Shown here: piece after piece, positions 163 to 15,223 of the stretch
Layout of the letters: each line of letters begins with the position of its first letter
Numbering within the stretch: position 1 is the stretch's first letter
Source: a virus
IMG/VR virus record: IMGVR_UViG_3300009159_000435
Coordinates: 1-20,066 of that record
Strand: one strand, 5' to 3'
DNA length: 20,066 nucleotides
Program-made: the position numbers and the translations under genes
The notes under the pieces: model-generated
Told to the model about the DNA's origin: nothing
Databases searched by the model: none
Seen by the model: the letters and a program-made list of their open reading frames with translations, nothing else

Positions 163-886
163 ACATTGTAGCAGAGTCTATAGTAGAAATCAACTTTTCA
201 GCAATCATTTTATGCCCAGATTCATTTGGATGACCTCCGGGCTTTACCAGTTTGTGTCTATCAGGATGAATGTCGATCCAAGGAGCAATTGCAAAATCTG
301 TCCAGATCAATGTAGGTAAATCCACAGTACCCCTAGCAGGCATGATATGGAATTGCATCATTGGAATGTTCTTCCTACTTGCAACACCATCAAAAAACAT
401 CACAGTCTGTTGATAATTTAAACGTGCTAGTGCATCGCAGTTGGTCAATACCAACTGTTGTTTAATCATGGTACGAAATTCTTCAGGTACTACACTACTT
501 CCAAAGTTTACCCAGGTAGAATGTACAAACTTGTTCCAAGGTGCGTCATTGCTGTAAATCACATGATTGGGATTGTAAAAGCTAAGTCGGTCCGAATCAG
601 TGTGCCCTAGTAACACCAAACATTCCTCTGGGTTGGGTTCATGATCCAGCCACCATTGGAATGTCCAAATTGAACTTTGCATTGATCCTCCTGGAATACC
701 AAAATTCTCAACAGGCACATTGTAACGTTTGCCAAGGACCCCCAAGAAGTTGTGGGTGGTTCGATATGTATCATTTAGTGTCCAACAGGAATGTGCGTCA
801 GAGTGCTGTTGTACTAGCACCGGATCCAGTAACTCGTCACCATACATCCACGAATCGCCAAATCCTACAATTTTTTTATATTTCAT
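161..886 (-). CDS. SGNH/GDSL-like hydrolase
   Basis: 241 aa. The N-terminus reads IVGFGDSWMYGDE with the GDS nucleophile block at residues 10-12. Near the C-terminus HPNESGH (residues 219-225) fits the histidine block of the SGNH family, whose members are esterases or deacetylases, often acting on acyl groups of carbohydrates. No signal peptide or membrane segment is seen, so it acts in the cytoplasm or as part of the virion. The ATG at 886 shares four bases (ATGA) with the stop of the tail-type gene upstream, so the two are probably translated together; this suggests a virion-associated or tail-glycan role, which is inference. Downstream, primase begins two bases after the stop. The Asp and Gly/Asn oxyanion blocks are harder to place, so catalytic competence is likely but not shown. 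Confidence 0.72.
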   Translation of the reverse strand: MKYKKIVGFGDSWMYGDELLDPVLVQQHSDAHSCWTLNDTYRTTHNFLGVLGKRYNVPVENFGIPGGSMQSSIWTFQWWLDHEPNPEECLVLLGHTDSDRLSFYNPNHVIYSNDAPWNKFVHSTWVNFGSSVVPEEFRTMIKQQLVLTNCDALARLNYQQTVMFFDGVASRKNIPMMQFHIMPARGTVDLPTLIWTDFAIAPWIDIHPDRHKLVKPGGHPNESGHKMIAEKLISTIDSATM

Positions 887-1971
887 CTAACTAGTATGCT
901 TACGATGGCTCCACGATTGAGACTGACTGCTGCAATCTGATTGCTTTGTTGTGGGTTACTAACATAACCTTGACCACCATTAATAACATTTATGGCACTT
1001 ACTGAGTTACCTTCAATTTCTGCTTCGGCTACTGCACCTGCACCTAGACCAATTATGTTCACACGCGGCGGCGCAAGATACCCGTATCCTGACTGAGTTA
1101 CTGTGATTGAGGTGATCACTCCGTTGGCTCCGTAAGCTGTGGCTGTGGCCAATTGTACCTGTTCTGTACCGGGCCATTGATCCGCCACAAGTCTCAACAA
1201 AGGATGATATCCCAATACATTGATATAGTCTGTGCCAGTTTTATTGTAATAGCTCTGCTGTTCAGTGACATCTACCCAGACTGATTCATAAGTTTGCGCA
1301 CCTTGTGCTTTGACATTACCAGTGAAGTGATCCATTTCCATTTGAAATGTGGTCAAGCTAGAACCATTACTGTTCACATGGCTGCTGAATCTTTGTGGAT
1401 CATTGAAAACATTTCCGTATGCACCAGGTGGGTTTAATGCCCAGTCTGGATAGTTGGCGCTGAATACCGGATCCAGAAATGCTTCTGGTCCATATATGTT
1501 AGGTATAGTCACCAAGTGGCTGGGCACAAAAGCAGGCTTCACACTATCTACAATGTCCACATCGCCACGAGCCTGTGCCTGCGCATCCACAAACACAGCT
1601 TCCACAAGATTGCCACTCGCACGTTCTATACTGTAGCTTGATGGTTCGGGAGGAAATTCAGAAGTTTCTGCAGAGGTTAATGTGACTTTGGCACGCCCGT
1701 ACTGAGCGTTGATTATGACCATGTCTTTTTCAATCAACTGTGCAGTACCTGTTAGATTGATCAATTTGAATCGTAATTCACTCCCTGTGATGTTCACAGG
1801 CTTTTGATCTTGATTAACAAACTCAAACAAGATCACGTTGTCAACACCTTTGTTGATGGTTAATTTTTTAGCGTACACAGGGTCCCACCTCCGGTCAAAA
1901 TAAGCACCGCTGGAATCCAAGACCAACACTCGTTGGATTTGCTGATAGATATAGATCTGAGTTGAATACAT
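883..1971 (-). CDS. Virion structural protein (tail/baseplate/fibre type)
   Basis: 362 aa from ATG at 1971. An upstream in-frame TTG at 1983 is possible, but GGAG lies six bases before the ATG, so I chose the ATG. The first ~80 residues form a beta-rich domain (LTINKGVDNVILFEFVNQDQ, then ELRFKLI) like the N-terminal adaptor of phage baseplate or fibre proteins. The C-terminus (about residues 286-341) has two copies of a glycine-tyrosine motif, ITVTQSGYGYLAPP and INVINGGQGYVSNP, which I know from repeat regions of virion proteins in marine myoviruses. No catalytic motif is seen. It is the first gene of a leftward unit and overlaps the SGNH gene by ATGA. The family assignment is by pattern memory; the exact structural position is unknown. 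Confidence 0.62.
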   Translation of the reverse strand: MYSTQIYIYQQIQRVLVLDSSGAYFDRRWDPVYAKKLTINKGVDNVILFEFVNQDQKPVNITGSELRFKLINLTGTAQLIEKDMVIINAQYGRAKVTLTSAETSEFPPEPSSYSIERASGNLVEAVFVDAQAQARGDVDIVDSVKPAFVPSHLVTIPNIYGPEAFLDPVFSANYPDWALNPPGAYGNVFNDPQRFSSHVNSNGSSLTTFQMEMDHFTGNVKAQGAQTYESVWVDVTEQQSYYNKTGTDYINVLGYHPLLRLVADQWPGTEQVQLATATAYGANGVITSITVTQSGYGYLAPPRVNIIGLGAGAVAEAEIEGNSVSAINVINGGQGYVSNPQQSNQIAAVSLNRGAIVSILVR

Positions 1972-1986
1972 ATGGTGCTCCAATGA

Positions 1987-1994
1987 TATTTACC
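1987..1994 (-). promoter_or_regulatory. Possible late promoter, minus strand (GGTAAATA)
   Basis: The minus strand reads GGTAAATA, matching six of eight bases of the T4 late -10 box TATAAATA, about 15 bases before the ATG of the tail-type gene. The same octamer lies before the leftward methyltransferase gene at 14423-14430, also opposite a plus-strand TAAATA box. The predicted transcript start would be very close to the ribosome-binding site, which weakens the call. Confidence 0.35.
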
Positions 1995-2007
1995 TAGACC
2001 CTCCAGG

Positions 2008-2015
2008 TATAAATA
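2008..2015 (+). promoter_or_regulatory. T4-type late promoter TATAAATA
   Basis: A perfect match to the T4 late promoter box, recognised in T4 by sigma gp55 with gp33 and the sliding clamp. It lies 17 bases before the ATG at 2032 in a 60-bp divergent gap. It would drive the two-gene rightward cassette 2032-3203, which otherwise sits alone among leftward genes. Confidence 0.7.
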
Positions 2016-2031
2016 TCCGAACTAGTACAAT

Positions 2032-2409
2032 ATGGGCAGAGACTTATTTCAAAAACTTGCTGACAAATATCCGTTTATAACGCTGTGTATGTACGCCACC
2101 AACGAATATGTGGGCATTGTACAGAATAGAGATGATATAATCACCACCATCTATGACTTTGGAAATGTTAAAGACCTAGAGCAAAAACGTCGCTATTTGG
2201 ATTTGGCCAACACCTGGTGGTGGGAATCTAATCGCAGCATACCTATCAACATATTTCTACGCGGCGAATGGGATGAATTCCGCGGGTGTTTACGAACGTT
2301 TGTAAACAAAGATTTAGAAATACTGCATGGCCCTGTGTGCAGCCTAAACGATATTGTACGTAGGAAAGGCAAACGAAAATCAATTACTTTAGTTAGGCGT
2401 ATTGAATGA
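2032..2409 (+). CDS. Conserved phage protein of unknown function
   Basis: 125 aa, soluble, with no signal or membrane segment. Features: an N-terminal FQKLADKYPFITLCMYATNEYVGIVQNRDD block, a WWWE cluster near residue 63, and a strongly basic C-terminus (RRKGKRKS). I recall similar short proteins opening with FQKLADKYPF in marine T4-like phages, but none with a known function. It starts 17 bases after the late-promoter box and has no clear Shine-Dalgarno sequence. Its stop overlaps the next ATG (ATGA at 2406), so it is co-translated with the SGNH hydrolase. A small nucleic-acid- or virion-associated role is possible but not shown. Confidence 0.7.
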   Translation: MGRDLFQKLADKYPFITLCMYATNEYVGIVQNRDDIITTIYDFGNVKDLEQKRRYLDLANTWWWESNRSIPINIFLRGEWDEFRGCLRTFVNKDLEILHGPVCSLNDIVRRKGKRKSITLVRRIE

Positions 2410-3203
2410 GTATTATAAAAAATTTAGTTGTAAACGGTTGCTCTTTTACCGACGAAAGATGTGGGCCAACTTGGGCAACGTGTCTATCACAGACACATTC
2501 CAATCTGAATTATCATAATATGGGCAGAGGCGGTGCTGGCAATCGTTATATTTGTAATAGTACCATTCAATTTTTAGAAAATCAAAATTTTAATCCGGCA
2601 GAGACTATAGTTATTATCATGTGGTCTGGACCTGGGCGAATAGATGTAGATCTCAGTAGTGAGTGGTGGAATTATCTATATGAGAAACATCCTTATGGAA
2701 AAAATCTCAATAATCAACATTATTATCTATTCAGTGGTGGTATCAATGGTTACGGTCCAACTGACATAAGAGAAATATTTAACTGGGGATATAAATTATC
2801 TGACCCACATACATTATGTTCAGACTCGTTGATGTATTTTATAAACTTAGAAAATTATCTCAAGATTCACGGATATCAATATCGATTTACTAGTTTTGTT
2901 AATTATTGGAACCCAATGAATGAAAGTTCCAAAATCACAAATCAACATTCAATTTCATATTTTTGTAACAATTATGCAATTTATCAAAACTATAAAATGA
3001 CAAATTGGTTTTTTGTAAATGATCAACGAGACTGTTTGGCTGAATTTTCAATGGATATCAATGAACTTGATCATACCGCCCATCCTACTGCGGAAGGACA
3101 TAGAAAATTTACAGAGAAAATAGTTTTGCCTATGTTTGAAGATCTATTAGATTCATGTGTAGCGCAACCAAGGCTGCATATCCCACAGCATGAGCTTTTT
3201 TAA
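2406..3203 (+). CDS. SGNH hydrolase-like protein, AT-rich
   Basis: 265 aa. VVNGCSFTDE (GCSF at residues 11-14) takes the place of the GDS nucleophile block. MGRGGAGN (39-46) fits the Gly/Asn oxyanion block, and HPTAEGH (226-232) is the catalytic-histidine block. These place it in the SGNH superfamily of acyl-ester hydrolases and acyltransferases. It is clearly diverged from the SGNH gene at 161-886. Base composition is extreme: the 60 bases 2941-3000 contain only 11 G or C, against 31 of 60 at 3241-3300 in the next gene, which suggests recent acquisition. The last ~20 residues, after FEDLL, run antisense over the 3' end of the opposing gene and contain no family motif. The substrate is unknown. 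Confidence 0.68.
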   Translation: MSIIKNLVVNGCSFTDERCGPTWATCLSQTHSNLNYHNMGRGGAGNRYICNSTIQFLENQNFNPAETIVIIMWSGPGRIDVDLSSEWWNYLYEKHPYGKNLNNQHYYLFSGGINGYGPTDIREIFNWGYKLSDPHTLCSDSLMYFINLENYLKIHGYQYRFTSFVNYWNPMNESSKITNQHSISYFCNNYAIYQNYKMTNWFFVNDQRDCLAEFSMDINELDHTAHPTAEGHRKFTEKIVLPMFEDLLDSCVAQPRLHIPQHELF

Positions 3204-3690
3204 ATGTATAACCTCTACTGTCATCACCGTCCCATACTGAGTCAAACACTTGAGGCCAAGGCTGATTCTGCAAGTGTGCCTTGCCTGGACGTATCACACT
3301 GATAAACGCTGCCATTCTAGTAATTGAATCAGGCTGCATACTCTTTAGCAATGCTTGATAGTTGCCTATGTGTACCAGTTGGCTGGCCCATTCTGGATCC
3401 TGCCATAATCTATCCCAAGGTGGTGTTGCTGCCAACATCTGTTCATAATGTGCAGGGTCACGAATCAAGTTGTACACACTCATGTTCAACAAGTCAATTT
3501 TGAAATAACCACGGGCTTCGGCTGTTTCATAGTCTATGGCTGCACATCCTAGAACAGGATCACGTGGTATGTCTGTGATGTAGATACCCGAGTTGTGTTT
3601 CTTTCCATTGCTTTGCCGTGCGGCTGTGTGCTGGATCAGTGCCAGCACAGCATCTCTATTGGGCACGTCAATGTCAATGTCTGCACTCAT
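3130..3690 (-). CDS. Miniature DNA polymerase III alpha (DnaE)-like protein
   Basis: 186 aa, against more than 1,000 for bacterial DnaE. Motifs of the DnaE palm and nearby region appear in the family order: SADIDIDV at 2-9 (compare PDFDVDF, two catalytic Asp), an HNSGIYIT block at 32-39 (compare the HxxGVVI block), GYFKIDLLN at 61-69 with D66 (compare VKFDFLGL, third catalytic Asp), IRPG at 133-136 (compare YRPG), and YTFKKAHAVGYA at 161-172 (compare GYGFNKSHSAAYA). The long stretches between these motifs, the PHP domain and the tau- and clamp-binding parts are absent. I remember similar short proteins in cyanomyoviruses without a proven function. It is coupled by ATGA (3687-3690) to a small virion-type gene. 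Polymerase activity is doubtful at this size; a recruited structural or regulatory role is possible. Confidence 0.6.
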   Translation of the reverse strand: MSADIDIDVPNRDAVLALIQHTAARQSNGKKHNSGIYITDIPRDPVLGCAAIDYETAEARGYFKIDLLNMSVYNLIRDPAHYEQMLAATPPWDRLWQDPEWASQLVHIGNYQALLKSMQPDSITRMAAFISVIRPGKAHLQNQPWPQVFDSVWDGDDSRGYTFKKAHAVGYAALVALHMNLIDLQT

Positions 3691-4037
3691 ATCGTTACCA
3701 ATGCCACTGTCATTCGCAGTTGTTCTTTAGCTTTGTCCACTGCATCTACTAGATCAGCAATTGCTGGATGTTGTTCGGCCAATGCTTTCATTTTTTGTTC
3801 TTCTGTCATCTTGTCAATAACCCAATTCATAGCCGATTGATATGTTGCAGTAAGGCTCACAGTTGCATAACTGGAGTTTATTTGAATCCATCTAGAACCG
3901 TCAAATGCTTCCAACAGATTACCGTTGACCCGTATCATACCTTGTATGGGATTGTTTGTGTTTTGTGTCACATATGGTAAACTAGTGTCGCCGCCATTTA
4001 CATTTACATACGCATCACCCATTAGTCCCTTGATCAT
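3687..4037 (-). CDS. Small virion-type protein of unknown function
   Basis: 116 aa. Residues ~10-55 contain YVNVNGGDTSLPYV, then GMIRVNGNLLEAFDGSRWIQI, the 'x-V-x-N-G-x-L-E-x-F-D-G-x-x-W' pattern common in small beta domains of phage tail and fibre proteins. The C-terminal third is helical and probably coiled (MTEEQKMKALAEQH, then LVDAVDKAKEQL). I recall proteins of this layout beside the DnaE-like small protein in marine T4-like phages. Both ends show ATGA overlaps (4034-4037 upstream, 3687-3690 downstream), so it sits in a strictly coupled series. No enzymatic motif is seen. A structural role is inferred from the pattern only. Confidence 0.6.
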   Translation of the reverse strand: MIKGLMGDAYVNVNGGDTSLPYVTQNTNNPIQGMIRVNGNLLEAFDGSRWIQINSSYATVSLTATYQSAMNWVIDKMTEEQKMKALAEQHPAIADLVDAVDKAKEQLRMTVALVTI

Positions 4038-5113
4038 GTTATATTCAACCCTAATATTGCCTGTTCAAACTGTTGGAAATTTTTATTCATCGTGCGGTTT
4101 AAATTTAAAAAATTAGATCTATTTTTCAATGCAATCAATTCCAATGCTGACTGATTTGCTGTCCAGTCAAATGAATCAAGATTATTGCACAGATCAACTA
4201 TTTTGTCAACACGATTGATGTATTCCAAATCGGCATCGTAACTTTCGTCCCATAAACTATCATAGGTATGGAATCCTATTTCTTTAAGATATTTCAAAAA
4301 GTGTGGAGTTGCAACTATCACAAATGGCATTCCGGTTATTAGACACTTGATGGTTTTTTCAGTTGGAAAAAATCCAAACCTCTGTGGAATATCTGTTTCC
4401 ACCACAAGATTAAAATTGGCCTGATTGTACATGTTGATAGGCAATGTATCACTGAGACTGTATGGATATTTTTTTAATAATGAGGTGTAAGGATCAAAGC
4501 TATCAGGTTCAAATTTAACTATATCAAATTGCCCCGATGGCATCCCTAAATCAACACCACTATATTTGAAAATAAAATTTGTGTAATTGATTTTTTTCAA
4601 TAATTGATCCTTGACGTAATCTCTCTGAACACGTGCCACCCCGGTGGTAGACACAAATCTCATAGGCTTTGGAGTATTGAATTGATACTCATTTTCTTGA
4701 TAAAAACAAATGCCTAACGGATTATTACTTGTATCGGTTACTTTAAAAAGAAAATGATAATATGTTATCCAGGTATAGTTTATCAATATATTTGCCGCCG
4801 CAGACGGTGGTAGTTGATTACAGTGGCCATCACTGGCAAATATAATGTAGTGTTTGTCTTTATTATATTGATTAAACCAGACTGCTGCATGTTTACCTTC
4901 TTCTATGCAATCAATTACTATTATCGGAGCGTCACATCGATTTACAGCATCAACATCGCTATATTGAATGCAAGGTATTCCAGTTTTACTATTTCGTATG
5001 TCTACAATTTTTTCCAAAGATGGATGATGTAACGTATTATAATCTTTCCACACTTGATATCGATTTAAAAATTCAATCACCAAGCCAGTTGCATTAATTT
5101 CTAATTTTTTCAT
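4034..5113 (-). CDS. Exostosin-like glycosyltransferase (probable)
   Basis: 359 aa from ATG at 5113. The frame is open to 5188, but the upstream gene stops at 5113-5115 and forms TAATG with this start, and AGGA lies five bases before it. The C-terminal half has VVETD, FFPTEKTIKCLITGMPFVIV and FLKYLKEIGFHTYDSLWDESYD followed by NRVDKIVDL. This is the signature I know from exostosin-type (GT47-like) glycosyltransferases in phage and bacterial glycan clusters: E-K-T at the nucleotide-sugar site and G-x-P-F. The N-terminal half is not recognised. The gene is AT-rich (11 G/C in the 60 bases 4561-4620), unlike the genes on both sides, which suggests insertion into an older operon. Donor and acceptor are unknown. 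Confidence 0.6.
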   Translation of the reverse strand: MKKLEINATGLVIEFLNRYQVWKDYNTLHHPSLEKIVDIRNSKTGIPCIQYSDVDAVNRCDAPIIVIDCIEEGKHAAVWFNQYNKDKHYIIFASDGHCNQLPPSAAANILINYTWITYYHFLFKVTDTSNNPLGICFYQENEYQFNTPKPMRFVSTTGVARVQRDYVKDQLLKKINYTNFIFKYSGVDLGMPSGQFDIVKFEPDSFDPYTSLLKKYPYSLSDTLPINMYNQANFNLVVETDIPQRFGFFPTEKTIKCLITGMPFVIVATPHFLKYLKEIGFHTYDSLWDESYDADLEYINRVDKIVDLCNNLDSFDWTANQSALELIALKNRSNFLNLNRTMNKNFQQFEQAILGLNIT

Positions 5114-5799
5114 TACCATCCTGCTTGTGTTAAAATTTCTTGTGCATACGCTTGATCTGCCGGATAATCCACAAACTTCTTTTGCCATATGTCTGAATCA
5201 ATATAAGGCCATATCATTGCCACTTGCTCTGAATTGAGTTCACTCAGGAACTTCTGTCCTGATTCACTATTGTAAATCACCCATGCACTTATCCTACCTG
5301 TAGTGACTGCATAGCAGGTGGCATTTGCGCTGCCGTATCTTAAACAGTCATGAGAAGGAGCATTTTGTTTTTCACTCCAGTTTATGCCATATTCAATCGC
5401 ACGAGACAATGCATCATCTACTGCCTCTCGGCGCACATATTCCACAAGATATTCTGTGTATAGCTTATCGCTGCACCAGTTGTCGATCTTCTTGTTGTTC
5501 TTTAACAACCACTCTAGGAAACGTACAGGGCTGATTACTCGAACATCCACACAGTATCGCCCCCATTTGACAAATGCACGATAGTAAGGTGACGTGGCAA
5601 AGTCATCCCAAGACTTGACTTTGGCTGACCCCTGTGTGTATTCGTAGAACTTCAAGTAGCCTTGCAGACCTAATTGCACACCACGTTCAGAAGATTCTTG
5701 ATAGCGTTTCTTCTGTTCGCACACATGCACACTCAGACTAGATTCCTTGCTGAATGATCGATTGCAATACTTACATGTGAAGTTACTTGTCGTTGCCAT
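5113..5799 (-). CDS. Zinc-finger (CxxC...HxC) phage protein
   Basis: 228 aa from ATG at 5799; a GTG two codons upstream (5805) is the alternative. Cys9, Cys12, His25 and Cys27 form a CxxC-x12-HxC finger (FTCKYCNRSF, then LSVHVCEQKKR), close to a C2H2 finger with the last His replaced by Cys. The rest (~200 aa) is unlike any enzyme I know but follows a pattern I remember from marine T4-like phages (QLGLQGYLKFYEYTQGSAK, then YYRAFVKWGRYC). A DNA- or RNA-binding role, for example in transcription or packaging, is a guess. The start overlaps the end of the upstream gene by 17 nt, and its TAA overlaps the following ATG. Confidence 0.7.
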   Translation of the reverse strand: MATTSNFTCKYCNRSFSKESSLSVHVCEQKKRYQESSERGVQLGLQGYLKFYEYTQGSAKVKSWDDFATSPYYRAFVKWGRYCVDVRVISPVRFLEWLLKNNKKIDNWCSDKLYTEYLVEYVRREAVDDALSRAIEYGINWSEKQNAPSHDCLRYGSANATCYAVTTGRISAWVIYNSESGQKFLSELNSEQVAMIWPYIDSDIWQKKFVDYPADQAYAQEILTQAGW

Positions 5800-6223
5800 G
5801 GTCACGGATGAGTTGTGTGACTTCTTTTTTAGTGGTCATTGTGGACATGAGATCAATTTCATCTTCTTTGAAATGCGGATACAACTCACGCAATTGCTTC
5901 TTCATGGCTGAATCCCCGGCTTCTTTCTTCTTGAGAGAAATCCAACTATGCCGCATAGATCCCATGCCCGGGCTGGCTGCTGTGGCCATAAGCCATTGCA
6001 GTTTAGGATGCCGGTGCATGGTAAAGAAGTGCTTGTTGAGATAATGATTCACACTCTGCACATAATATTCTTGTAGTTCTTGGGTACCATCTACTGTGCT
6101 GCCCCAACGCACCATGAGGAATGTTGAAAACTTCTTGCGTTCTTCAACTGTGAGTTCATCATAGAATGCTCTATTCTTTGCGTCCATTTGTCGCATCTCA
6201 TTGCTGATGTGTAGTTTATCCAT
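5783..6223 (-). CDS. Conserved phage protein of unknown function
   Basis: 146 aa from ATG at 6223. The frame can be extended to a TTG at 6235, but the ATG is the better start and overlaps the upstream stop by 8 nt. The protein is all-alpha in appearance, with LHISNEMRQMDAKNRAFYDE, then RKKFSTFLMVRWGS, then HYLNKHFF, and a charged C-terminus. I recall homologues next to the zinc-finger gene in marine T4-like phages, so the pair may work together. No catalytic motif is seen. Richer-GC composition matches the zinc-finger gene rather than the AT-rich methyltransferase gene upstream. Confidence 0.68.
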   Translation of the reverse strand: MDKLHISNEMRQMDAKNRAFYDELTVEERKKFSTFLMVRWGSTVDGTQELQEYYVQSVNHYLNKHFFTMHRHPKLQWLMATAASPGMGSMRHSWISLKKKEAGDSAMKKQLRELYPHFKEDEIDLMSTMTTKKEVTQLIRDHGNDK

Positions 6224-6833
6224 TGTTTTTTTCAAATTGATATATTGGCCAGTCAGATTTTAAACTTAAATTTTCAGGTAAAATCTCTTTTGTATGTAAT
6301 CGATAACCAAGATTTGTCAGAGATGCTATTAGCAATCTTTCATTAATCTGTATTACAATACCACAAGTTTTTTTGTCAGATACAACATATCTCATGCCCG
6401 GGGAGTTAATGGGTTCTTGATACCAACTCAGCATCTTACCCGGAGAGTCAATTAGTATAGTTTGCGGATCACAATAGTTTACCAGTTGCTCTAACAACAA
6501 CAATGGGGCATGGCTATGATAAATTACTCCTAGCACAATAGCTACATCTACTGGTCCAACTTGATTCAAATCATGATGCATATCGCCTAATAGTATTTTG
6601 CATGATGCTAAATTGGGATTTAATTTTAACTGATCGACTGCACTCTTATTTGCCTCAATCAATGTGAGATTAGTTGGCCGATGTTTTATGATACGTTCAC
6701 TAATACAGCCGCCGTATGGACCTATCTCCACCACAGACTTACTTTCACATAGATGTAACCAATTATCGTCAATGTGTTGCCAAGTATCTTGTCCAGGTAC
6801 CTGTGTCATATCCAAATTGTAATTATTGCTCAT
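6216..6833 (-). CDS. Class I SAM-dependent methyltransferase
   Basis: 205 aa. Motif I is VVEIGPYGG (34-42), followed by an acidic residue at the end of strand 2 (LTLIEAN, E60), GDMHHDL (83-89) and VDVAIVLGVIYHSHAP (95-110). The YHxxxP after strand 4 resembles methyltransferases of the CmoB/Methyltransf_27 type. The fold is clear; the substrate is not. A small metabolite or sugar is likely given the glycosyltransferases nearby. ATGA overlap with the 79-aa gene upstream. AT-rich (15 G/C in the 60 bases 6241-6300), so it looks like another insertion between conserved phage genes. Confidence 0.75.
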   Translation of the reverse strand: MSNNYNLDMTQVPGQDTWQHIDDNWLHLCESKSVVEIGPYGGCISERIIKHRPTNLTLIEANKSAVDQLKLNPNLASCKILLGDMHHDLNQVGPVDVAIVLGVIYHSHAPLLLLEQLVNYCDPQTILIDSPGKMLSWYQEPINSPGMRYVVSDKKTCGIVIQINERLLIASLTNLGYRLHTKEILPENLSLKSDWPIYQFEKNNG

Positions 6834-7069
6834 CTTGTTTTAGTCAGGTGATAGATCATTATAACACGTTCAATGGCATCTTGTAAAGCGGGATTGGTAT
6901 CAGCTGCTCTGCGAATGTTACCCCACAATTTTGATTCCATGATGTGATCATGTAAGGGTCTGCCATCATGTGTTCTAGCATCGTGAGTGCTGATCAACTC
7001 ACGTTGGTCAGACCCGTGCTCACGAGAGTACACTGTATTACCACCATCGGGACTTTCGAATATTGGCAT
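6830..7069 (-). CDS. Small conserved phage protein of unknown function
   Basis: 79 aa, soluble. It opens with MPIFESPDGGNTVYSREHGS and has a central LHDHIMESKLWGNIRRAA, then an alpha-helical end (LQDAIERVIMIYHL). I remember this protein as a conserved neighbour of other core genes in marine T4-like phages, always without assigned function. It lies four bases after the stop of the family-25-like glycosyltransferase and overlaps the methyltransferase gene by ATGA. No motif points to a reaction. Confidence 0.7.
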   Translation of the reverse strand: MPIFESPDGGNTVYSREHGSDQRELISTHDARTHDGRPLHDHIMESKLWGNIRRAADTNPALQDAIERVIMIYHLTKTR

Positions 7070-7073
7070 TGAG

Positions 7074-7886
7074 CTAGTTCAACACGATCATTGCATCTTT
7101 GAAATCCAATGTTGGTCCATTCAGCCGCCATTGTTGTGAAACCACTCGATGCGACCAATACTGTGCATCATTTGCAACTTCGGCACCTTCTGTGATTACC
7201 ACTTTGTTTTCAAAAGTGGTGCCGAGTTTGTCATGTTCAACCAACATTGGAAAATTATAAATGCCAGGGGCCTGTAGATACAAGAGATTTTCTATAATAG
7301 GGCCATACTGATCCCCATAGATGTCAATCAAATCAAGATTGTAGGTGTTGTATCCGTGACAGGTTCTATCCAGCAGAAGTTTAACATAGGAGCGTCGGAA
7401 CAAGGAATATGCTCCCCACCAGCGGCCACGTGTGAGTTTGATTGCTAAGTTTGGTTCGCCGGCTGGATTGCAGTAAGGCATTTGTACCTTGGTCAGCTGT
7501 ACTCCATTCCAATCTGCCGGAAGATGTTGTACGAACTCATCCCAGGTAAAATTCCAATGGTCTATGCTTTGAAAACTCACATCATCTTCGCAGAAAATAG
7601 CATACTCCTCGTTGGTTGACACGTACCAATTTCTCAACAGATTCAGATGAGAAATTATGGTGCCCATCTGAACAACAACTTCTTTCATGAATCTGCCCGA
7701 TCCAGTGATATCTATCATGGAGGAAATTTTATTAAATCGTTCAGTGAGGTATACGTTTGTTTTTATAATGCCATACTGATCAAATTGATCTTGCATGAAT
7801 TTTCTACGATCGACACTTTCGTATAAACTGGTGTAATTGACCGATGGAAAGTTTTTGATTTTTTCTTCGATGGTTAATGCTGTCAT
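7074..7886 (-). CDS. Glycosyltransferase, GT25-like (LPS-type)
   Basis: 270 aa. The N-terminal YESVDRRKFMQDQFDQYGI (22-40) matches the 'S-x-D-R-R ... M ... Q/L ... G-I' opening of family 25 transferases, and YAIFCEDDVSF (95-105) is the acidic E-D-D metal/nucleotide-sugar site. Also seen: LTRGRWWGAYSLFRRSYVKLLL, resembling the 'G-x-x-A-Y-x-x-S' segment near the acceptor site. Family 25 enzymes add galactose or glucose to lipopolysaccharide or protein glycans. Located in the cytoplasm. It sits between two conserved phage genes, with spacings of 3 and 4 nt. The donor is unknown. Confidence 0.68.
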   Translation of the reverse strand: MTALTIEEKIKNFPSVNYTSLYESVDRRKFMQDQFDQYGIIKTNVYLTERFNKISSMIDITGSGRFMKEVVVQMGTIISHLNLLRNWYVSTNEEYAIFCEDDVSFQSIDHWNFTWDEFVQHLPADWNGVQLTKVQMPYCNPAGEPNLAIKLTRGRWWGAYSLFRRSYVKLLLDRTCHGYNTYNLDLIDIYGDQYGPIIENLLYLQAPGIYNFPMLVEHDKLGTTFENKVVITEGAEVANDAQYWSHRVVSQQWRLNGPTLDFKDAMIVLN

Positions 7887-7889
7887 GGT

Positions 7890-8390
7890 TTACCAAGCCT
7901 TGTTATAGTCCACAATCTCACAGTTACGGCTAATGTCTTTGACAAAATACACACAGTCAGGTTGCGGTGCATCATTGATAGGAACGCATAACATCTGCCC
8001 ATTTTTTAGTTTGGGTGCATACCACGCTACTTCTTGATATACATCTACAATTTCAATAGGCGGAAAACTTGGCCGGAAACTGGAGAGAGGATTGAATTGA
8101 AACAGTTTAAATCCACGATCATTGATGCTGGTGAGTGGTAGCATTTCTAAATCACCCACATCGGGTTCTCCAATTAGCACTTGCCAATCCATGGGCATTT
8201 TAATTCTTGCATCACCTATTTGTAATACCAATGCAGGTGCATTAAAACTTTCTAAAAAGATCAACGGTATGTAATGATAGTCAGGGTTGGCTGGATCAGA
8301 ATTGTCTAATATAGCAAATCTCATATCATCTACTTCTTCAGGTAAATGATCGAGATCGTAGGGTCGGTTGTCAAGGGTTAAGATACGCAT
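7890..8390 (-). CDS. Conserved phage protein of unknown function
   Basis: 166 aa from ATG at 8390. The frame stays open to 8624 but that part is antisense-free overlap with uvsW in another frame, so I reject it. The start MRILTLDNRPYDLDHLP and blocks MRFAILDNSDPANPDYHYIPLI, RIKMPMDWQVLIGEP and YFVKDISRNCEIVDYNKAW match a protein I remember from marine T4-like phages; function unknown. Predicted largely beta, soluble. A 37-nt gap separates it from uvsW and holds a TTGCAT-17-TACAAT arrangement (8397-8425), a weak sigma70-like candidate whose start would fall at the ATG. No Shine-Dalgarno sequence is seen. Confidence 0.68.
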   Translation of the reverse strand: MRILTLDNRPYDLDHLPEEVDDMRFAILDNSDPANPDYHYIPLIFLESFNAPALVLQIGDARIKMPMDWQVLIGEPDVGDLEMLPLTSINDRGFKLFQFNPLSSFRPSFPPIEIVDVYQEVAWYAPKLKNGQMLCVPINDAPQPDCVYFVKDISRNCEIVDYNKAW

Positions 8391-8427
8391 GAGTTTATTG
8401 TACTGTATTTTTTGTAAAAATGCAACC

Positions 8428-9888
8428 TCATTGCCAATGTAATTTTTCCTGGGTATAAGGATATTCAGCATCATTATAGTAGGCCTTGCGTTTGACCAAA
8501 TGTCGTTTGCTGAATCTGCATGTTGATGTGATATCCCAAATCTGCACATGATCCTTGTCTTCGGCTTTTCTGATACCGCGACCAATTGATTGTATAACCC
8601 TAGTAAAACTCTTGCCCGACTCAATCATTACCAAGTTAAAGATGCGTGGTATGTTGATACCCACCGCTGCCACACCATATGTGGCCACAATGATTTTGCC
8701 AGTAGCTGTGGCCACTTCGTCGTATTCTTCCTGACGTGCAGCACCTTTGGTTGCGCCCGATACAAATACTGCTCGATCGCCTAGCCTTGCAACTAATTCA
8801 TGCCCTGGTGCCACACGATCTACCAACACTAGAGTATTACCAGTTTCATTAACTTGCAGCACCAACTGTGCAATGGCATCCAGTCGACCCGATTCTTCCA
8901 ATAGATATTTTAATTCTTGTTGGTAAGTTTTGTGTTCCACAGTGTCTACCATCTGCACCACATTCACATGACACTGTGCCAGTACGCCTCGATCTTGCAG
9001 TTCACTAGCAGCCAGTTTTGAAATCACTGGGCCTAGACTTACCAGCAGTGCTTGGCTTTCAAATGCTTCTTTGGGTATAGTTCCGGTCAATCCCCAACGA
9101 ATTGGCACTTGCGCCATCACTGTGGTCAACAAGGTCTTTAATGCATCAGCTTTGGCCATATGTACTTCGTCTACAATAACACATACAACATCTTCAATGA
9201 ACTCTTGTATGGTACAATCACCTATGCCATTCTTGGTGTTCTTCTTCAGATTGTTTAGGCTTTGCCAAGTGCATATGGTATGACTACGCCCGTATTCTTT
9301 TCTATCCCCAAAGTACACACCTACATCCAATTCCATGTTGATGTAGTCTTTTTCAGTTTGTGTAACCAAGCTCTTGTTAGGCACAATCACAATGCTGCGA
9401 CCATACTTGCTGACTGCATCACTTAGTGCTGCTGTCATAATAGTCTTGCCTGCACCGGTGGCCACTTCTTGTAGGCACTGTGGGTTGGCTAGGAAATTGT
9501 TGATAATTTCTACTTGGTAATCACGTAGCTCGATGGGCTTGCCTGCTTGTGGATGTTTTTCTGGCCACGATTTGTGTGCATAGGTTTGTTCATGCACCTG
9601 ATCAAACTCAAATGTGGTTGTGTACGTGCGTTGGTCATCTAGTTCAACATCATAATTGTGTTTGTCTAGTATGGGCAAGATCTCAGGTAGTAAATTTACG
9701 TAAGTGCTGCCTCCAAGTTGGAAGTATGCAACCTTACCATCCCAACGACCTAGTCTCACAGCTGGTAGATAACGTGCGTAGGGCACATCGTATTTGAATT
9801 TCTTTACCAGTTCTTTGCGAGCATCAAGATCCAGGCCTTCAATTTTGATATTGACTTCATCGCTTATTTTAATTGTGCATCTTTTCAT
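8428..9888 (-). CDS. uvsW: UvsW-like superfamily 2 helicase
   Basis: 486 aa from ATG at 9888; the frame extends to a TTG at 9939 that runs through a terminator, so I reject it. Motifs: Walker A ATGAGKT (143-149) after a Q-motif-like LRDYQ (121-125), VDEVH (239-243), GLTGT (266-270), and QSIGRGIRK (433-441, motif VI). The ~110-residue N-terminal domain (GRWDGKVAYF, then LLPEIL) agrees with UvsW. In T4 UvsW unwinds branched DNA and R-loops, and shifts replication from origin- to recombination-dependent mode. Length is close to T4 UvsW (about 500). It begins 35 nt after the terminator of the AAA+ unit, so it needs its own promoter; no Shine-Dalgarno sequence is evident. Confidence 0.93.
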   Translation of the reverse strand: MKRCTIKISDEVNIKIEGLDLDARKELVKKFKYDVPYARYLPAVRLGRWDGKVAYFQLGGSTYVNLLPEILPILDKHNYDVELDDQRTYTTTFEFDQVHEQTYAHKSWPEKHPQAGKPIELRDYQVEIINNFLANPQCLQEVATGAGKTIMTAALSDAVSKYGRSIVIVPNKSLVTQTEKDYINMELDVGVYFGDRKEYGRSHTICTWQSLNNLKKNTKNGIGDCTIQEFIEDVVCVIVDEVHMAKADALKTLLTTVMAQVPIRWGLTGTIPKEAFESQALLVSLGPVISKLAASELQDRGVLAQCHVNVVQMVDTVEHKTYQQELKYLLEESGRLDAIAQLVLQVNETGNTLVLVDRVAPGHELVARLGDRAVFVSGATKGAARQEEYDEVATATGKIIVATYGVAAVGINIPRIFNLVMIESGKSFTRVIQSIGRGIRKAEDKDHVQIWDITSTCRFSKRHLVKRKAYYNDAEYPYTQEKLHWQ

Positions 9889-9895
9889 ATAGTAT

Positions 9896-9924
9896 ATAGT
9901 AACATACTTAAATAGGATAGTCAA
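9896..9924 (-). promoter_or_regulatory. Weak sigma70-like promoter candidate for uvsW
   Basis: Minus strand TTGACT (9919-9924), a 17-nt spacer, and TACTAT (9896-9901). The -35 box overlaps the T-run of the terminator. The start point would be about at the ATG, so a leaderless message would result; this makes it uncertain. Confidence 0.25.
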
Positions 9925-9948
9925 AAAAACAGGCACCAAAGTGCCTGT
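9923..9948 (-). terminator. Rho-independent terminator ending the AAA+ unit
   Basis: On the minus strand ACAGGCAC, a 4-nt loop TTTG, then GTGCCTGT form an 8-bp stem, directly followed by a run of T residues (9923-9928, seven counting the last stem base). A textbook intrinsic terminator. It separates the AAA+/small-gene transcript from uvsW. Confidence 0.85.
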
Positions 9949-9949
9949 A

Positions 9950-9987
9950 TAAAAGAGTCGCTGGGCTAGAAAAACTTTGGCGACTCT
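9950..9987 (-). terminator. Second hairpin, possible tandem terminator
   Basis: On the minus strand AGAGTCGC (9980-9987) pairs with GCGACTCT (9954-9961) across an 18-nt loop and is followed by TTTA. A third small hairpin (TTGGC/GCCAA, 9993-10007) lies just upstream. With the strong terminator at 9923-9948 these make three stems in 80 bases after the last small gene. They could be a tandem terminator or protect the 3' end of the message. Confidence 0.5.
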
Positions 9988-10012
9988 GTTTCTTGGCTTT
10001 ACGCCAAAAATC

Positions 10013-10117
10013 TTATGAGATCTTTACTATTTGGAATCCAATTTCTTTAGCTTCATCAGCTTCATATTCGGAATCCACAGTGTACAAAAACAAATCACCA
10101 TCCCAGATTTCAAACAT
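10013..10117 (-). CDS. 34-aa acidic protein
   Basis: 34 aa: begins MFEIWDGDLFLYTVDSEYE and ends with a GFQIVKIS tail. Strong start signal: AAGGA six bases before the ATG. Acidic, soluble, no membrane segment. I recall short proteins with the same WDGDLFLY-x-VDSEYEADEA pattern in marine T4-like phages; function unknown. It starts nine bases after the stop of the 46-aa membrane gene and ends 26 bases before the first terminator stem, so it closes the AAA+ unit. Confidence 0.65.
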   Translation of the reverse strand: MFEIWDGDLFLYTVDSEYEADEAKEIGFQIVKIS

Positions 10118-10126
10118 ACAGTTTCC

Positions 10127-10267
10127 TTAAAAGATTTCAACCATTAATCGGGCTAGATACCAGGCACTGATAACCAAACAGATCCATCCTGTTACTGTAG
10201 CGCCATCCTCAAAGCAATGCTTGGCAAACCACCCATTCAGCAACATCCAAACAATCGACACTTCCAT
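10127..10267 (-). CDS. 46-aa small membrane protein (predicted)
   Basis: 46 aa with two hydrophobic stretches: residues 4-14 (SIVWMLLNGWF) and 26-38 (TGWICLVISAWYL), separated by a short polar turn with K-H and E-D-G. It ends with a charged R-L-M-V-E-I-F tail. It may form a helical hairpin in the inner membrane. The start ATG at 10267 lies nine bases after the stop of the 27-aa gene; no strong Shine-Dalgarno sequence is seen. The reading frame is clean and its position between other co-directional small genes supports it. Function unknown. Confidence 0.55.
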   Translation of the reverse strand: MEVSIVWMLLNGWFAKHCFEDGATVTGWICLVISAWYLARLMVEIF

Positions 10268-10276
10268 TTTAATCAC

Positions 10277-10360
10277 TCACAGTAAAAGCATGGCAGCTAT
10301 GAAAAATGCCAACCATGGGTGGCCGAAATACAATGCAGCAATTACGGCTACCCAACCCAT
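10277..10360 (-). CDS. 27-aa hydrophobic peptide (predicted)
   Basis: 27 aa, MGWVAVIAALYFGHPWLAFF then IAAMLLL: almost entirely hydrophobic, interrupted by G-H-P-W, and long enough for one membrane span. The ATG is separated from the AAA+ stop by one base (TAAGATG), so it could be reached by ribosomes ending the upstream gene. No independent evidence of conservation can be given. Function unknown; a membrane-acting helper of the AAA+ protein is only a guess. Confidence 0.45.
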   Translation of the reverse strand: MGWVAVIAALYFGHPWLAFFIAAMLLL

Positions 10361-10361
10361 C

Positions 10362-11390
10362 TTAGTCTGCTACCTTCATGCAGGTAGTCTCTGCAAGACG
10401 GCGCCAGTTATCAGGACTCAGTTTACGCAAGTCTGCGATCTTCAATGCCATACGCAGGCTCATTTCACGTAAACGAGCTTGGTTAGTTTCCATGAACTCA
10501 AAGATACTGTCTTGAGTCTCGGGCTCAAAGTCGTAACCATCAAACAATACACCGTCCTTGGCGATCTGCTTGATACGCAAGATCTTGTCACGCATGGTGT
10601 CAAGAGTCAAGTCTAGGTAATGGCAACGACTTTGCAGTGCGTCCAAGTGATCGCGCAGTTTCTGCGATTTCATCTTGTCAAACTTCAAGTTGGTGATAAA
10701 GATCACCGAGCCTTTGAACTCGAAACGATCTGGGATGCCTTCGCGACGCAGAGTGGAACTCTCGCTCAACCACGAAATAACACGCTTCTTGCCAGAGTCC
10801 AATGCACCTTTCAGCAAGTTCAGAGCAACGTCATCCAACAGGATCGAGTCACAGTCATCAAACACTACCATACAGTTAGCATCACTGTATTTGTACAGAG
10901 TCTGATACAGTCCAATAGGAGTAGCACTACCTTTCACAACTTCTGCACGAAGCTTCTTGCCTGCGATCTTGTCAAACAGTGTGGCTTTTTCGATCTCTTG
11001 TTCCACGCCGTAGCTCTTGCCCACGCCAGGAGGGCCGCTCACAATCATAGCACGGATGTCGCCGCCAATGCAGGCTTTTGACATTTCTGTGAGTATTTCA
11101 AAACGCTCGCGGATACGAGTCATTGCTTCTTCTTCAGTCTCTACTACAAAAGCAGATGCCTTAGCAGCAGGTGTGTTCATTTCCACAGTGTCACCGTTCA
11201 CCATCTCGTAGTCAGAGATAGCATTAACGCGGATGCGGACTGTGGCAGGGCAGTTGGGGAATGTGCCGTTGTTTTGCACAGTGACATAGCCGCCTTTGGC
11301 GCCAGTTTGAAAGCCGCTTACCAGCATGAAGTTTTGGTTGCTAACAGTCTTGCCGCGGTACTCGCCGCGAATAATACGAATTGCGCTCAT
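10362..11390 (-). CDS. AAA+ ATPase
   Basis: 342 aa. N-terminal ~70 residues form a small beta domain (IRGEYRGKTVSNQNFMLV, then GGYVTVQN). The AAA+ core has Walker A GPPGVGKS (119-126), Walker B VVFDDCDS (175-182) and sensor 1 FITN (231-234). A basic helical C-terminus (MSLRMALKIADLRKL) follows. It is an oligomeric ATPase remodelling protein or nucleic acid; the partner is unknown. Codon use is richer in G+C (34 of the 60 bases 11221-11280) than neighbouring glycan genes. It is the first gene after two tandem sigma70-type promoters and is followed by three tiny genes and terminators, so it is a self-contained, probably early unit. A GGGG nine bases before the start is the only ribosome-binding candidate. 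Could be a RuvB- or clamp-loader-like remodeler, but no subfamily is clear. Confidence 0.8.
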   Translation of the reverse strand: MSAIRIIRGEYRGKTVSNQNFMLVSGFQTGAKGGYVTVQNNGTFPNCPATVRIRVNAISDYEMVNGDTVEMNTPAAKASAFVVETEEEAMTRIRERFEILTEMSKACIGGDIRAMIVSGPPGVGKSYGVEQEIEKATLFDKIAGKKLRAEVVKGSATPIGLYQTLYKYSDANCMVVFDDCDSILLDDVALNLLKGALDSGKKRVISWLSESSTLRREGIPDRFEFKGSVIFITNLKFDKMKSQKLRDHLDALQSRCHYLDLTLDTMRDKILRIKQIAKDGVLFDGYDFEPETQDSIFEFMETNQARLREMSLRMALKIADLRKLSPDNWRRLAETTCMKVAD

Positions 11391-11422
11391 GGTTTCTAGC
11401 CCCGTTGTGTTGTTAAGCCACT

Positions 11423-11451
11423 ATTGTAGCAGTTGTTGAGATACCGGTCAA
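11423..11451 (-). promoter_or_regulatory. Sigma70-type promoter P2 for the AAA+ unit
   Basis: Minus strand TTGACC (11446-11451), a 17-nt spacer, and TACAAT (11423-11428). Five of six bases match in each box. The start would be near 11416, giving a leader of about 26 nt before the ATG at 11390. The -35 box lies in the 12-mer GTTGACCGGTAT shared exactly with P1. Confidence 0.75.
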
Positions 11452-11552
11452 CTCCTTTTTACAGGATTTTTCCAATTTTTTCTGCGAAAACTGTGGGCTT
11501 TTTGCCACATTATTAAGCAGTTTTTTGTTGGTATCTTTGTTGACATGTAGCT

Positions 11553-11581
11553 ATTATAGCCGATCATACAATACCGGTCAA
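11553..11581 (-). promoter_or_regulatory. Sigma70-type promoter P1 for the AAA+ unit
   Basis: Minus strand TTGACC (11576-11581), a 17-nt spacer, and a perfect TATAAT (11553-11558). It lies 130 bp upstream of P2. The -35 box is inside a perfect interrupted dyad CCGGT-TG-ACCGG (11574-11585), a possible operator, and the -10 box is inside GCTATAATAGC, also a dyad. The 201-bp gap 11391-11591 holds only these promoters and the AT-rich leader between them; I see no reliable gene in it. Confidence 0.78.
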
Positions 11582-11591
11582 CCGGGCTGAG

Positions 11592-12398
11592 CTAGCGCCA
11601 GTGTTGTTTTATCACAACATCGTTGGTTTCGTGCGGCTTAGGATCCCCGTGAAACACCAATACACTATTGCCGGGAGAAAGTATAGTGCCGCGCCCGGGC
11701 CTATTGTAAGTTCTATTCGTGAAGTTCATGCCGCCGTCTAGTGCAGTCCATCTCCAACTCACAACACGATCAGGATCCATGAATCGGCGTTTTTCCGGAG
11801 CAATCACTGTGGTGAGATATTCCTGATCGCCGCCGTGTTGATATCTGCTGATTATTTTGCTGGCTCCGTTTTGCTCAAAGTTTGACCACACATGCGACCA
11901 TTTGGTAGTGTCCCAATACATCACAGATGAGTTCATGTTTTGCACATCTGCTTTCCACAACACTCTGAAATCACGTATGGTCCAAAAATAAAATGGGCTG
12001 AGATCTACCATCCAATCTATGTTGTCAACAATCACTGTGTCTAGATCAAAGTACAGCAATTGCCCAGAATGGTGGGCAGGATTAAACATCTGCATTTTGT
12101 ACCACCAGCTGCGTTTGCGGCCACTGATACCAGTCCATTCCATTAGATTGTGTCGGATCATGTGTGGTGGCACTGATCGACTGGCTTCTGTATACACATG
12201 CAATCTCACGCCACGTGTTAGGTGGCGACTCAACATGCTGTGTAATCTTTCTACATAAACCCAATTATATCCATTGCCATGAATCACACAGGCACAATCT
12301 ACAGGCCCAGTGGGAGTATTCTCAGGATTCATTTGTTTTTTTGCTCGATACGCTTCTCGTTCAGCACGATGCAAATCTTTTTCACGTTGGGTAGCCAC
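11592..12398 (-). CDS. Glycosyltransferase, GT-A type
   Basis: 268 aa from a GTG at 12398; GGA lies eight bases upstream, and the first internal ATG would lose 22 residues. After a charged N-terminal helix, the core begins CACVIHGNGYNWVYVERL (35-52). LLYFDLDTVIVDNID (114-128) holds the D-x-D metal/nucleotide-sugar motif, and HGD near the C-terminus (VFHGDPKPHE) fits the second metal or donor site of GT8-like enzymes. Cytoplasmic. The gene lies four bases after the GT17-like gene and is the last of a leftward set of four (14415 to 11592). Donor and acceptor are unknown. Confidence 0.68.
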   Translation of the reverse strand: MATQREKDLHRAEREAYRAKKQMNPENTPTGPVDCACVIHGNGYNWVYVERLHSMLSRHLTRGVRLHVYTEASRSVPPHMIRHNLMEWTGISGRKRSWWYKMQMFNPAHHSGQLLYFDLDTVIVDNIDWMVDLSPFYFWTIRDFRVLWKADVQNMNSSVMYWDTTKWSHVWSNFEQNGASKIISRYQHGGDQEYLTTVIAPEKRRFMDPDRVVSWRWTALDGGMNFTNRTYNRPGRGTILSPGNSVLVFHGDPKPHETNDVVIKQHWR

Positions 12399-13833: not shown

Positions 13834-14415
13834 TTAAATCGAATTGCTGTGAGCAAATGGTTTTGTCACTATCCAACAACGACCCGATCTGCTGACTTTA
13901 ATATCCTGCGGGCCAAAGAAATCCCATACTGCTTGTTGCACACCTGGATATCCTTTGGTGTAATCATCACCGGCAAATCTTGATCCTGGACGCAATTTTG
14001 GCCACCATGCAGTTAGATCATTTGTGACCGCTTCATAACTATGCCCGGCATCCACATAACAAAAATCCACAGAATTATCTTCAAAGTCATCAGCAGCATC
14101 CCAACTGATTTTGCTCAGCATGGTAACCTGTTCTATTATCGGATTTAGATTTTGGCAAAAAATGTTTTCAAGGTCTTGCACAACATCTACATCATAAGCA
14201 ATTGCCGCTTCCCCTTTCCATGTATCTACACAGTAGAATGGACCTAGCTTATCACGGTTGATCAGTTCTACTACACAATAAGCTGCACTACGGCCGGTCC
14301 AGGATCCTAATTCAACCCAGGTACCACCAGCTGGAAATTGATCTAACACAATGTCAAGCATGATAGTATTCTTGTGACTCATAAATCCGTTGATGGTTTG
14401 ATAAAAATGCTCCAT
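13834..14415 (-). CDS. Class I SAM-dependent methyltransferase (Methyltransf_24-like)
   Basis: 193 aa. Motif I WVELGSWTGRSA (33-44), VDTWKGE at strand 2 (63-69), YVDAGHSYEAV (120-130) and AGDDY (148-152). The D-A-G-H-S-Y-E block is the hallmark of Methyltransf_24 proteins, many of which modify sugars or hydroxamates in surface-glycan clusters. First gene of the leftward set, with its ATG overlapping the divergent start region. No Shine-Dalgarno sequence is seen; a GGTAAATA octamer lies eight bases upstream. It differs from its neighbour at 13191 too much to be a recent duplicate. Confidence 0.78.
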   Translation of the reverse strand: MEHFYQTINGFMSHKNTIMLDIVLDQFPAGGTWVELGSWTGRSAAYCVVELINRDKLGPFYCVDTWKGEAAIAYDVDVVQDLENIFCQNLNPIIEQVTMLSKISWDAADDFEDNSVDFCYVDAGHSYEAVTNDLTAWWPKLRPGSRFAGDDYTKGYPGVQQAVWDFFGPQDIKVSRSGRCWIVTKPFAHSNSI

Positions 14416-14422
14416 GATATTT

Positions 14423-14430
14423 TATTTACC
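14423..14430 (-). promoter_or_regulatory. Possible late promoter, minus strand (GGTAAATA)
   Basis: Same octamer as at 1987-1994, eight bases before the leftward methyltransferase ATG, again opposite a plus-strand TAAATA box. Predicted initiation would be almost at the start codon, so this is weak. Confidence 0.3.
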
Positions 14431-14442
14431 GTTATATACGCC

Positions 14443-14450
14443 GATAAATA
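14443..14450 (+). promoter_or_regulatory. T4-type late promoter (GATAAATA)
   Basis: Seven of eight bases of TATAAATA, 15 bases before the ATG at 14465, in the divergent gap before the five-gene rightward operon. The predicted RNA start is near 14456, which favours ATG 14465 over ATG 14456 for the first gene. Confidence 0.55.
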
Positions 14451-14464
14451 TTTCTATGGACACT

Positions 14465-15223
14465 ATGAAAATTGTAATTGTTACCGGCGGGTTTGACCCT
14501 ATGCATTCTGGTCATGTGATGTATCTTAGAGATGCACGTAAACTTGGGCACATGTTAATTGTGGGATTGAACTCTGATGAATGGCTCACCCGCAAAAAGG
14601 GCAAACCATTCATGAACTATCACGAACGCTGGGCTGTGCTGCTGGGCTGTAGATATGTAGATGGCGTTATCAGTTTTGATGATGCCGACGGATCAGCATG
14701 TGATGCAATTCGCAAAGTCAAAGCTCAATATCCCGGCGCAGAAATAACCTTTGCCAATGGCGGAGATCGCACAAAAGAAAACATACCCGAAATGGTGTTT
14801 GATGATGTGGAGTTTGTGTTTGGGGTAGGCGGAGAGAACAAAGCCAACAGCAGCAGCTGGATCTTGGAAGAATGGAAAAAGCCCAAAACAGATCGTGCCT
14901 GGGGCTACTATCGTATTTTACATGAAGTTGGATCACATGTAAAACTCAAAGAACTCACTGTGATGCCCGGGCAACGACTCAGTATGCAACGTCATGAAAA
15001 ACGTGCAGAGTTTTGGTTTGTGGCCGAAGGTGAAGCCACAGTATACACCGTAGATCCGTACAGCACTGACTATGATTTGTTAGCCAGTCCTGCTCGGCAT
15101 CAACACACCTGGATTCGACTAGGAGAATGGCATCAGTTATGTAACGAAACTGATCAGTTGCTTAAACTAATCGAAATACAGTATGGTGAAGATTGCATAG
15201 AAGAAGATATTGAGCGCAAATGA
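14465..15223 (+). CDS. Nucleotidyltransferase-cupin fusion (heptose-1-P adenylyltransferase/cytidylyltransferase-like plus sugar isomerase-type cupin)
   Basis: 252 aa from ATG 14465; an ATG at 14456 adds three residues, and the open frame to 14414 crosses the promoter. Residues 1-140 are a cytidylyltransferase-like domain: GGFDPMHSGH (8-17) with the HxGH nucleotide site, GLNSDEW (34-40), and NSSSW (128-132) near the second, ISSTR-like site. Residues ~146-250 are a cupin: WGYYRILHEVG, LTVMPGQRLSMQRHEKRAEFW and an HQLCNETDQ block, as in mannose-6-phosphate isomerase type II C-termini. It probably activates a sugar phosphate (heptose- or glycerol-like) and binds or isomerises a sugar. It opens an operon whose next four genes are glycosyltransferase- or capsule-like, and its end overlaps the next start by ATGA. 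Confidence 0.8.
   Translation: MKIVIVTGGFDPMHSGHVMYLRDARKLGHMLIVGLNSDEWLTRKKGKPFMNYHERWAVLLGCRYVDGVISFDDADGSACDAIRKVKAQYPGAEITFANGGDRTKENIPEMVFDDVEFVFGVGGENKANSSSWILEEWKKPKTDRAWGYYRILHEVGSHVKLKELTVMPGQRLSMQRHEKRAEFWFVAEGEATVYTVDPYSTDYDLLASPARHQHTWIRLGEWHQLCNETDQLLKLIEIQYGEDCIEEDIERK

Follow-up and report, generated by a model that had tools for sequence, protein, structure and literature searches.

The window, by which we mean the whole 20,066-nucleotide stretch of viral DNA analysed here, carries on its minus strand an AAA+ ATPase gene followed by three very small genes (p27, p46 and p34). Along that strand the order is P1, P2, AAA+, p27, p46, p34, three hairpins, the uvsW promoter and uvsW (Table 1). 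The four genes were recovered as the initial annotation had described them, that is, an AAA+ gene followed by 27-, 46- and 34-aa genes, and they are separated by only 1, 9 and 9 nt; an equally tight three-ORF chain arose by chance in 10 of 200,000 mono-nucleotide shuffles. The p46 gene is counted here from a conserved ATG and appears as a 49-aa ORF in the program-made list, where it was counted from an upstream GTG, and an AAGGA ribosome-binding sequence lies directly 5′ of p34. The same annotation had placed promoters at one end of the unit and tandem terminators at the other. Indeed, two promoter matches stand on one side and three consecutive hairpins (folding z = -6.1), the last two of them strong intrinsic terminators, lie 3′ of p34 on the other; promoters and terminators are conserved in homologues. 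Judging from sequence comparison, we think it rather likely that the AAA+/microgene unit is an accessory operon, insulated at both ends and probably expressed early, in a jumbo myophage.

Table 1. Predicted features of the AAA+/microgene unit and its boundary with uvsW (nucleotide positions are those of the window; residues are those of the AAA+ protein).
Feature	Position	Strand	Details
Distal promoter P1	11553-11581	(-)	TTGACC-17-TATAAT
Proximal promoter P2	11423-11451	(-)	TTGACC-17-TACAAT, ~61 nt 5′ of the AAA+ start codon
AAA+ gene (NrdC.10 family)	10362-11390	(-)	342 aa
SH3-like barrel	residues 1-66		
Disordered linker	residues 66-82		
AAA+ domain	residues 86-342		Walker A GPPGVGKS; Walker B FDDCD; sensor 1 FITN; arginine-finger candidate SRCHY; sensor 2 region LREMSLRMALK
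p27 gene	10277-10360	(-)	27-aa hydrophobic microprotein, predicted single helix
p46 gene	10127-10267	(-)	46-aa microprotein, predicted two-helix membrane hairpin, from the conserved ATG
p34 gene	10013-10117	(-)	34-aa acidic microprotein
Hairpin nearest to the p34 stop codon	9989-10011	(-)	by folding
Terminator hairpin 1	9954-9987	(-)	AGAGTCGC...GCGACTCT TTTAT
Terminator hairpin 2	9929-9948	(-)	ACAGGCACTTTGGTGCCTGT, then T-run
Fused terminator-promoter boundary	9919-9948	(-)	T-run overlaps the next -35 box: TTTTTTGACT
uvsW promoter	9896-9924	(-)	TTGACT-17-TACTAT, 7 nt before ATG; marks the unit boundary
UvsW-type helicase	8428-9888	(-)	phrog_16, E=7.9e-72; downstream neighbour, outside the unit

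No near match to bases 1-12000 of the window was found in the phage collection. The jumbo phages nearest to its UvsW are Sinorhizobium phage Phosso (469 kb, 54%) and Cronobacter GAP32 (359 kb, 48%), and the relatives of the window include records of 300-364 kb. The related contigs are those of uncultured jumbo phages, presumably from freshwater, a habitat suggested by the kind of collections in which the contigs are held. A search of bacterial genome contigs for a relative of the AAA+ protein, which might have pointed to a host, gave none that could be confirmed. A ribosomal S21 gene is present in seven of the 11 long related records (G002, G003, G005, G007, G008, G009 and G012). Elsewhere in the window, at 14414-15223 (+), we noticed by eye an ORF whose N-terminal half is HxGH nucleotidyltransferase-like and whose C-terminal half is cupin-like. 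It sits in a cluster whose other ORFs are glycosyltransferase-like and methyltransferase-like, likewise recognized by eye.

The AAA+ protein matches phrog_1250 over its full length (E=4.6e-84, residues 2-339 on positions 2-327 of a profile of 327), and T4 nrdC.10 aligned with it at 35% identity over 74% of the query. On these matches it is not a new protein and belongs to a known and widespread phage family, that of T4 NrdC.10. Within the phage collection searched, 1,236 records contained a match, T4 included, and all of these matches were less than 60% identical. In a 2006 survey, nrdC.10 appeared as an AAA-ATPase ORF conserved in three of six T4-like phages (PMC1524935), and our reading of the literature found no tested function for NrdC.10. 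The Walker A motif, the DDxD Walker B motif, the sensor 1 asparagine, the SR motif and the sensor 2 arginines are invariant or nearly so among the homologues.

The AlphaFold model of the protein has a pLDDT of 86, and that of the N-domain alone a pLDDT of 90. The solved folds nearest to the modelled AAA+ core are those of the MoxR/NorQ/CbbQ proteins (Z up to 13.2 over 212 residues), whose scores are tied, within 1, with those of sigma54 activators and MCM. The MoxR/NorQ/CbbQ proteins differ from the window protein in their N-domain, and a VWA partner gene, searched for with a single VWA profile (PF13519), was not detected in ten of the 11 long records, the one match lying far from AAA+. Profile matches to loader families were obtained in PHROGs (phrog_3277, DnaC-like, E=1.1e-4; phrog_168, E=0.006), and matches to RFC profiles from the PDB (E 7e-4) covered part of the core. 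The SH3-like barrel is a fold common to some nucleic-acid-binding and protein-binding domains. The modelled N-domain matched SH3 folds with a Z of about 5, the Spt4/5 complex being among the matched rows, but the SH3-like matches are weak (best Foldseek E = 0.48) and give a fold class and no function. T4 MotB, an early DNA-binding protein with a predicted KOW/SH3-like N-terminal barrel (PMC7827196), also has an SH3-like N-terminus but is without an AAA+ domain; the analogy is a loose structural one only.

Upstream of the AAA+ homologues, a TTGAC/TATAAT-type match was present in 122 of 175 distinct regions, against 2.8% of single-nucleotide shuffles of such regions. A promoter matching P1, at about -190, recurs upstream of most homologues. 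In close relatives the promoters are mostly paired, at about -190 and -61, with the proximal one sometimes at about -75. By their sequence pattern P1 and P2 are twin host-type (sigma70) promoters, both of them conserved. The T4 annotation places early promoter 54.4 directly 5′ of nrdC.10, and it is from this promoter together with the host-type promoters of the window that we infer early expression of the unit. T4 NrdC.10 is comparable to the window protein in being a full-length homologue with the same domain order and in having a promoter directly upstream, annotated in T4 as early. However, it is only 35% identical, it is followed by nrdC.9 and other genes with no p34 or p46, and uvsW is not its neighbour. 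The closest annotated AAA+ proteins, 48% identical, are found in the PA5oct-group Pseudomonas jumbo phages (Cassandra, Arenbergviridae, 288 kb), but the annotated genes downstream in Cassandra encode about 185, 136 and 288 aa and include no annotated microgene train.

At the other end of the unit, the T-run of hairpin 2 passes without a break into the -35 box (TTGACT) of the uvsW promoter. A leaderless-type promoter was found after p34 in 81 distinct loci, and all 81 keep this fusion of hairpin, T-run and -35 box; another 75 loci, counted without de-duplication, had no such promoter within 700 nt. Changes in the stem of hairpin 2 are compensated across loci (ACAGGCAC/GTGCCTGT, GTAGGCAC/GTGCCTAC, ACAGGGAC/GTCCCTGT), and in homologues CGACTCTTTT or CCCGGGCTTT, which resemble hairpin 1, stand ahead of it. 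The listed uvsW ORF (8428-9939, 503 aa) begins at a TTG at 9939, inside the terminator. Given the position of the uvsW promoter, the start is more probably the ATG at 9888 (486 aa) rather than this TTG, and since the promoter lies only 7 nt before the ATG, the uvsW mRNA is predicted to be leaderless.

We compared 80 AAA+ loci from viral contigs and searched the 1.3 kb downstream of each with profiles, which recovered 21 distinct sequences of p27, 38 of p46 and 38 of p34, those of the window included. Pooled dN/dS was 0.46 for p27, 0.38 for p46 and 0.26 for p34, whereas the +1 and +2 frames gave values of 0.98-1.55 (0.98 and 1.55 in the case of p27), and column permutation yielded no value as low as the real one in 200 trials for any of the three. 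The comparison with the shifted frames and the permutation rule out that these are chance ORFs; going by their substitution patterns, p27, p46 and p34 are real coding genes under purifying selection. The proposal that small genes of this kind accompany the ATPase also survived the check on which it could have fallen, all three frames being conserved beside AAA+ homologues. Two of the products had been described as hydrophobic and one as acidic, and this is borne out by a GRAVY of 1.88 for p27, two hydrophobic stretches in p46 (conserved pattern WFAKxxFExG...GWxxLxxSAW...IF) and, for p34, a pI of 4.05 and a net charge of -7 (conserved pattern M[FY]EIWDGDLFLYxVDTxYEADEAxExGF). By hydropathy, p27 and p46 fit membrane proteins.

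No functional match was obtained for any of the three proteins in PADLOC, Pfam, NCBIfam or PHROGs, in agreement with the initial annotation, which knew of no function for their combination with the ATPase. The matches of p27 and p46 likewise included no superinfection-exclusion family (e.g. T4 Imm) or other assigned function, very short proteins being hard to match. A tblastn search of cultured phages left p34 without any match and p46 without a credible one. Three members of the p46 family matched phrog_21338 (E 1.2e-4) and three matched phrog_2925 (E 0.003), neither of which has a known function. The p34 matches to phrog_17674 (E 0.009, for one p34 member), DUF6150 (E 0.11) and TIGR03000 (E 0.05) were treated as chance, and hydrophobic composition probably accounts for the match of p27 to TraQ (E 0.02-0.04). 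The suggestion of an undescribed small system was borne out in part: by these searches the microgenes are mostly new families, but the ATPase that they accompany belongs to a phage family already known, that of T4 nrdC.10.

When p34 alone was used as the query, each of the 147 loci whose flank was long enough had AAA+ upstream, and the remaining 13 were cut by contig ends; the loci overlap and represent 103 distinct neighbourhoods. In the p34-anchored loci the identity of the AAA+ protein went down to 54%, and the gap between the two genes ranged from 5 to 913 nt. The same search anchored on p46 gave AAA+ upstream in 53 of 53 loci with enough flank. Each of 20 long records contains one AAA+ gene; p34 is present in 17 of them, p46 in six. 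Where present, p34 occurs once and at no second genomic location, up to about 0.9 kb downstream of AAA+ except in one record (G014), where it lies about 2 kb downstream. In the collections searched, p34 and p46 were thus found only with an AAA+ gene of the phrog_1250 family.

This exclusive association, the tightness of the operon and its conserved order (of 185 loci that have at least two microgenes, 177 keep them in this order), together with two proteins that fit membrane insertion, could suggest that the four proteins form one obligate, membrane-tethered AAA+ machine serving host takeover or superinfection exclusion. However, in 183 distinct neighbourhoods we counted p27-p46-p34 in 19, p46-p34 in 15, p27-p34 in 32, p34 alone in 52, p46 alone in 6, p27 alone in 8 and none of the three in 41, further sets, p27-p46 among them, also occurring. 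Each microgene is therefore missing in many close relatives where AAA+ stays, and the earlier view of the four genes as one system is not supported. Since the microgenes were lost independently and nearly every combination is seen, they would make up an optional accessory set and not an obligate system. The absence of p34 and p46 from the tblastn results in cultured phages and the lack of any library match pointing to exclusion or defence also speak against an obligate machine, which we consider very unlikely.

Downstream of the unit, uvsW was found in 122 of 140 AAA+ loci and in 137 of 150 p34 loci, and the AAA+/p34/uvsW block is, by gene order, syntenic in the related phage clade. The 'DNA helicase' encoded downstream of the AAA+ homologue of Vibrio phage D506 is not UvsW, so the adjacency of AAA+ and uvsW is seen only in the closer clade. 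With uvsW following p34 so often, the linkage of AAA+ and p34 may be inherited gene order and not function. A serious rival to a functional linkage, which we regard as possible rather than probable, is that the microgenes are passengers, i.e. independent small host-modifying proteins lodged in a permissive slot between AAA+ and uvsW, and linked to AAA+ by the gene order of the clade only. Such passengers would be dispensable, as each microgene is, and in other loci (e.g. L002, L003, L033 and L048) unrelated larger genes have been swapped into the interval between p34 and uvsW, among them radical-SAM-like ('MPFC...') and 285-300-aa ('MPQHL...') families, many with a leaderless-type promoter of their own. 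But p34 adjoins AAA+ even where uvsW was not found nearby (e.g. L108, L123 and L129), it has been kept across the AAA+ divergence noted above, and the 20 long records showed no second location for it.

We thus favour an accessory operon, in which host RNA polymerase would read the unit from the twin promoters, most likely early, and stop before uvsW. The AAA+ protein would assemble into a ring-shaped ATPase whose target, a protein or nucleoprotein, it remodels, ring assembly being expected from the resemblance of its core to ring-forming AAA+ proteins (MoxR/NorQ, sigma54 activators, MCM), and the SH3-like N-terminal barrel may be the part that binds the target. The microgenes would be optional riders whose precise insertion or deletion leaves the promoter on one side and the terminator on the other in place, and each is selected as a protein in its own right. 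The p27 and p46 proteins would insert into the inner membrane, most likely as separate envelope modifiers made simultaneously. For p34 the most likely role would be that of a soluble acidic partner contacting AAA+, as an adaptor or an inhibitor, an assignment that we offer tentatively and with less than even confidence; p34 is missing from many close relatives that keep AAA+, so AAA+ works without it. Any effect of the unit on the host, be it the host takeover or the superinfection exclusion that had been proposed, would be a further, presumed step of this scheme.

It is conceivable, though we find it doubtful, that p34 is a dedicated adaptor or regulator of the NrdC.10 ring and that p27 and p46 are alternative membrane add-ons which direct or localise it; if true, these phages would have a modular AAA+ system whose microprotein cofactors can be exchanged. 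Alternatively, p34 could be a dedicated inhibitor or acidic mimic of a host target (e.g. RNA polymerase or a nuclease), with AAA+ acting as a separate nucleoprotein remodeller. The strong conservation of p34, a charge of -7 within 34 aa and the SH3-like N-domain of AAA+ are all consistent with this, but p34 has no family match, and we judge it unlikely. Whichever the role of p34, NrdC.10 is widespread and we found no tested function for it, and a linked 34-aa protein offers a concrete candidate partner. The unit also illustrates cleanly how microproteins (27 to 46 aa), easily overlooked by gene finders, are gained and lost singly between promoters and terminators that stay in place, while selection acts on them.

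The uvsW promoter is one of many of its type in these phages. The pattern TTGAC-N17-TATAMT, set 6 nt (5-7) before an ATG, occurs in the window (9886-9924, minus strand) and throughout the related loci, and with this spacing the predicted transcription start is the A of the ATG. We counted 215 distinct leaderless-type sites ahead of ORFs of at least 100 codons, a few sites inside the AAA+ gene being included in that number, and 150 of them have a spacing of exactly 6 nt. Phage transcripts were often leaderless in a jumbo-phage transcriptome (PMC5312081). The density of such promoters in these phages seems worth study: strict matches numbered 7-18 per record in eight long records, against 0 for the reversed pattern.
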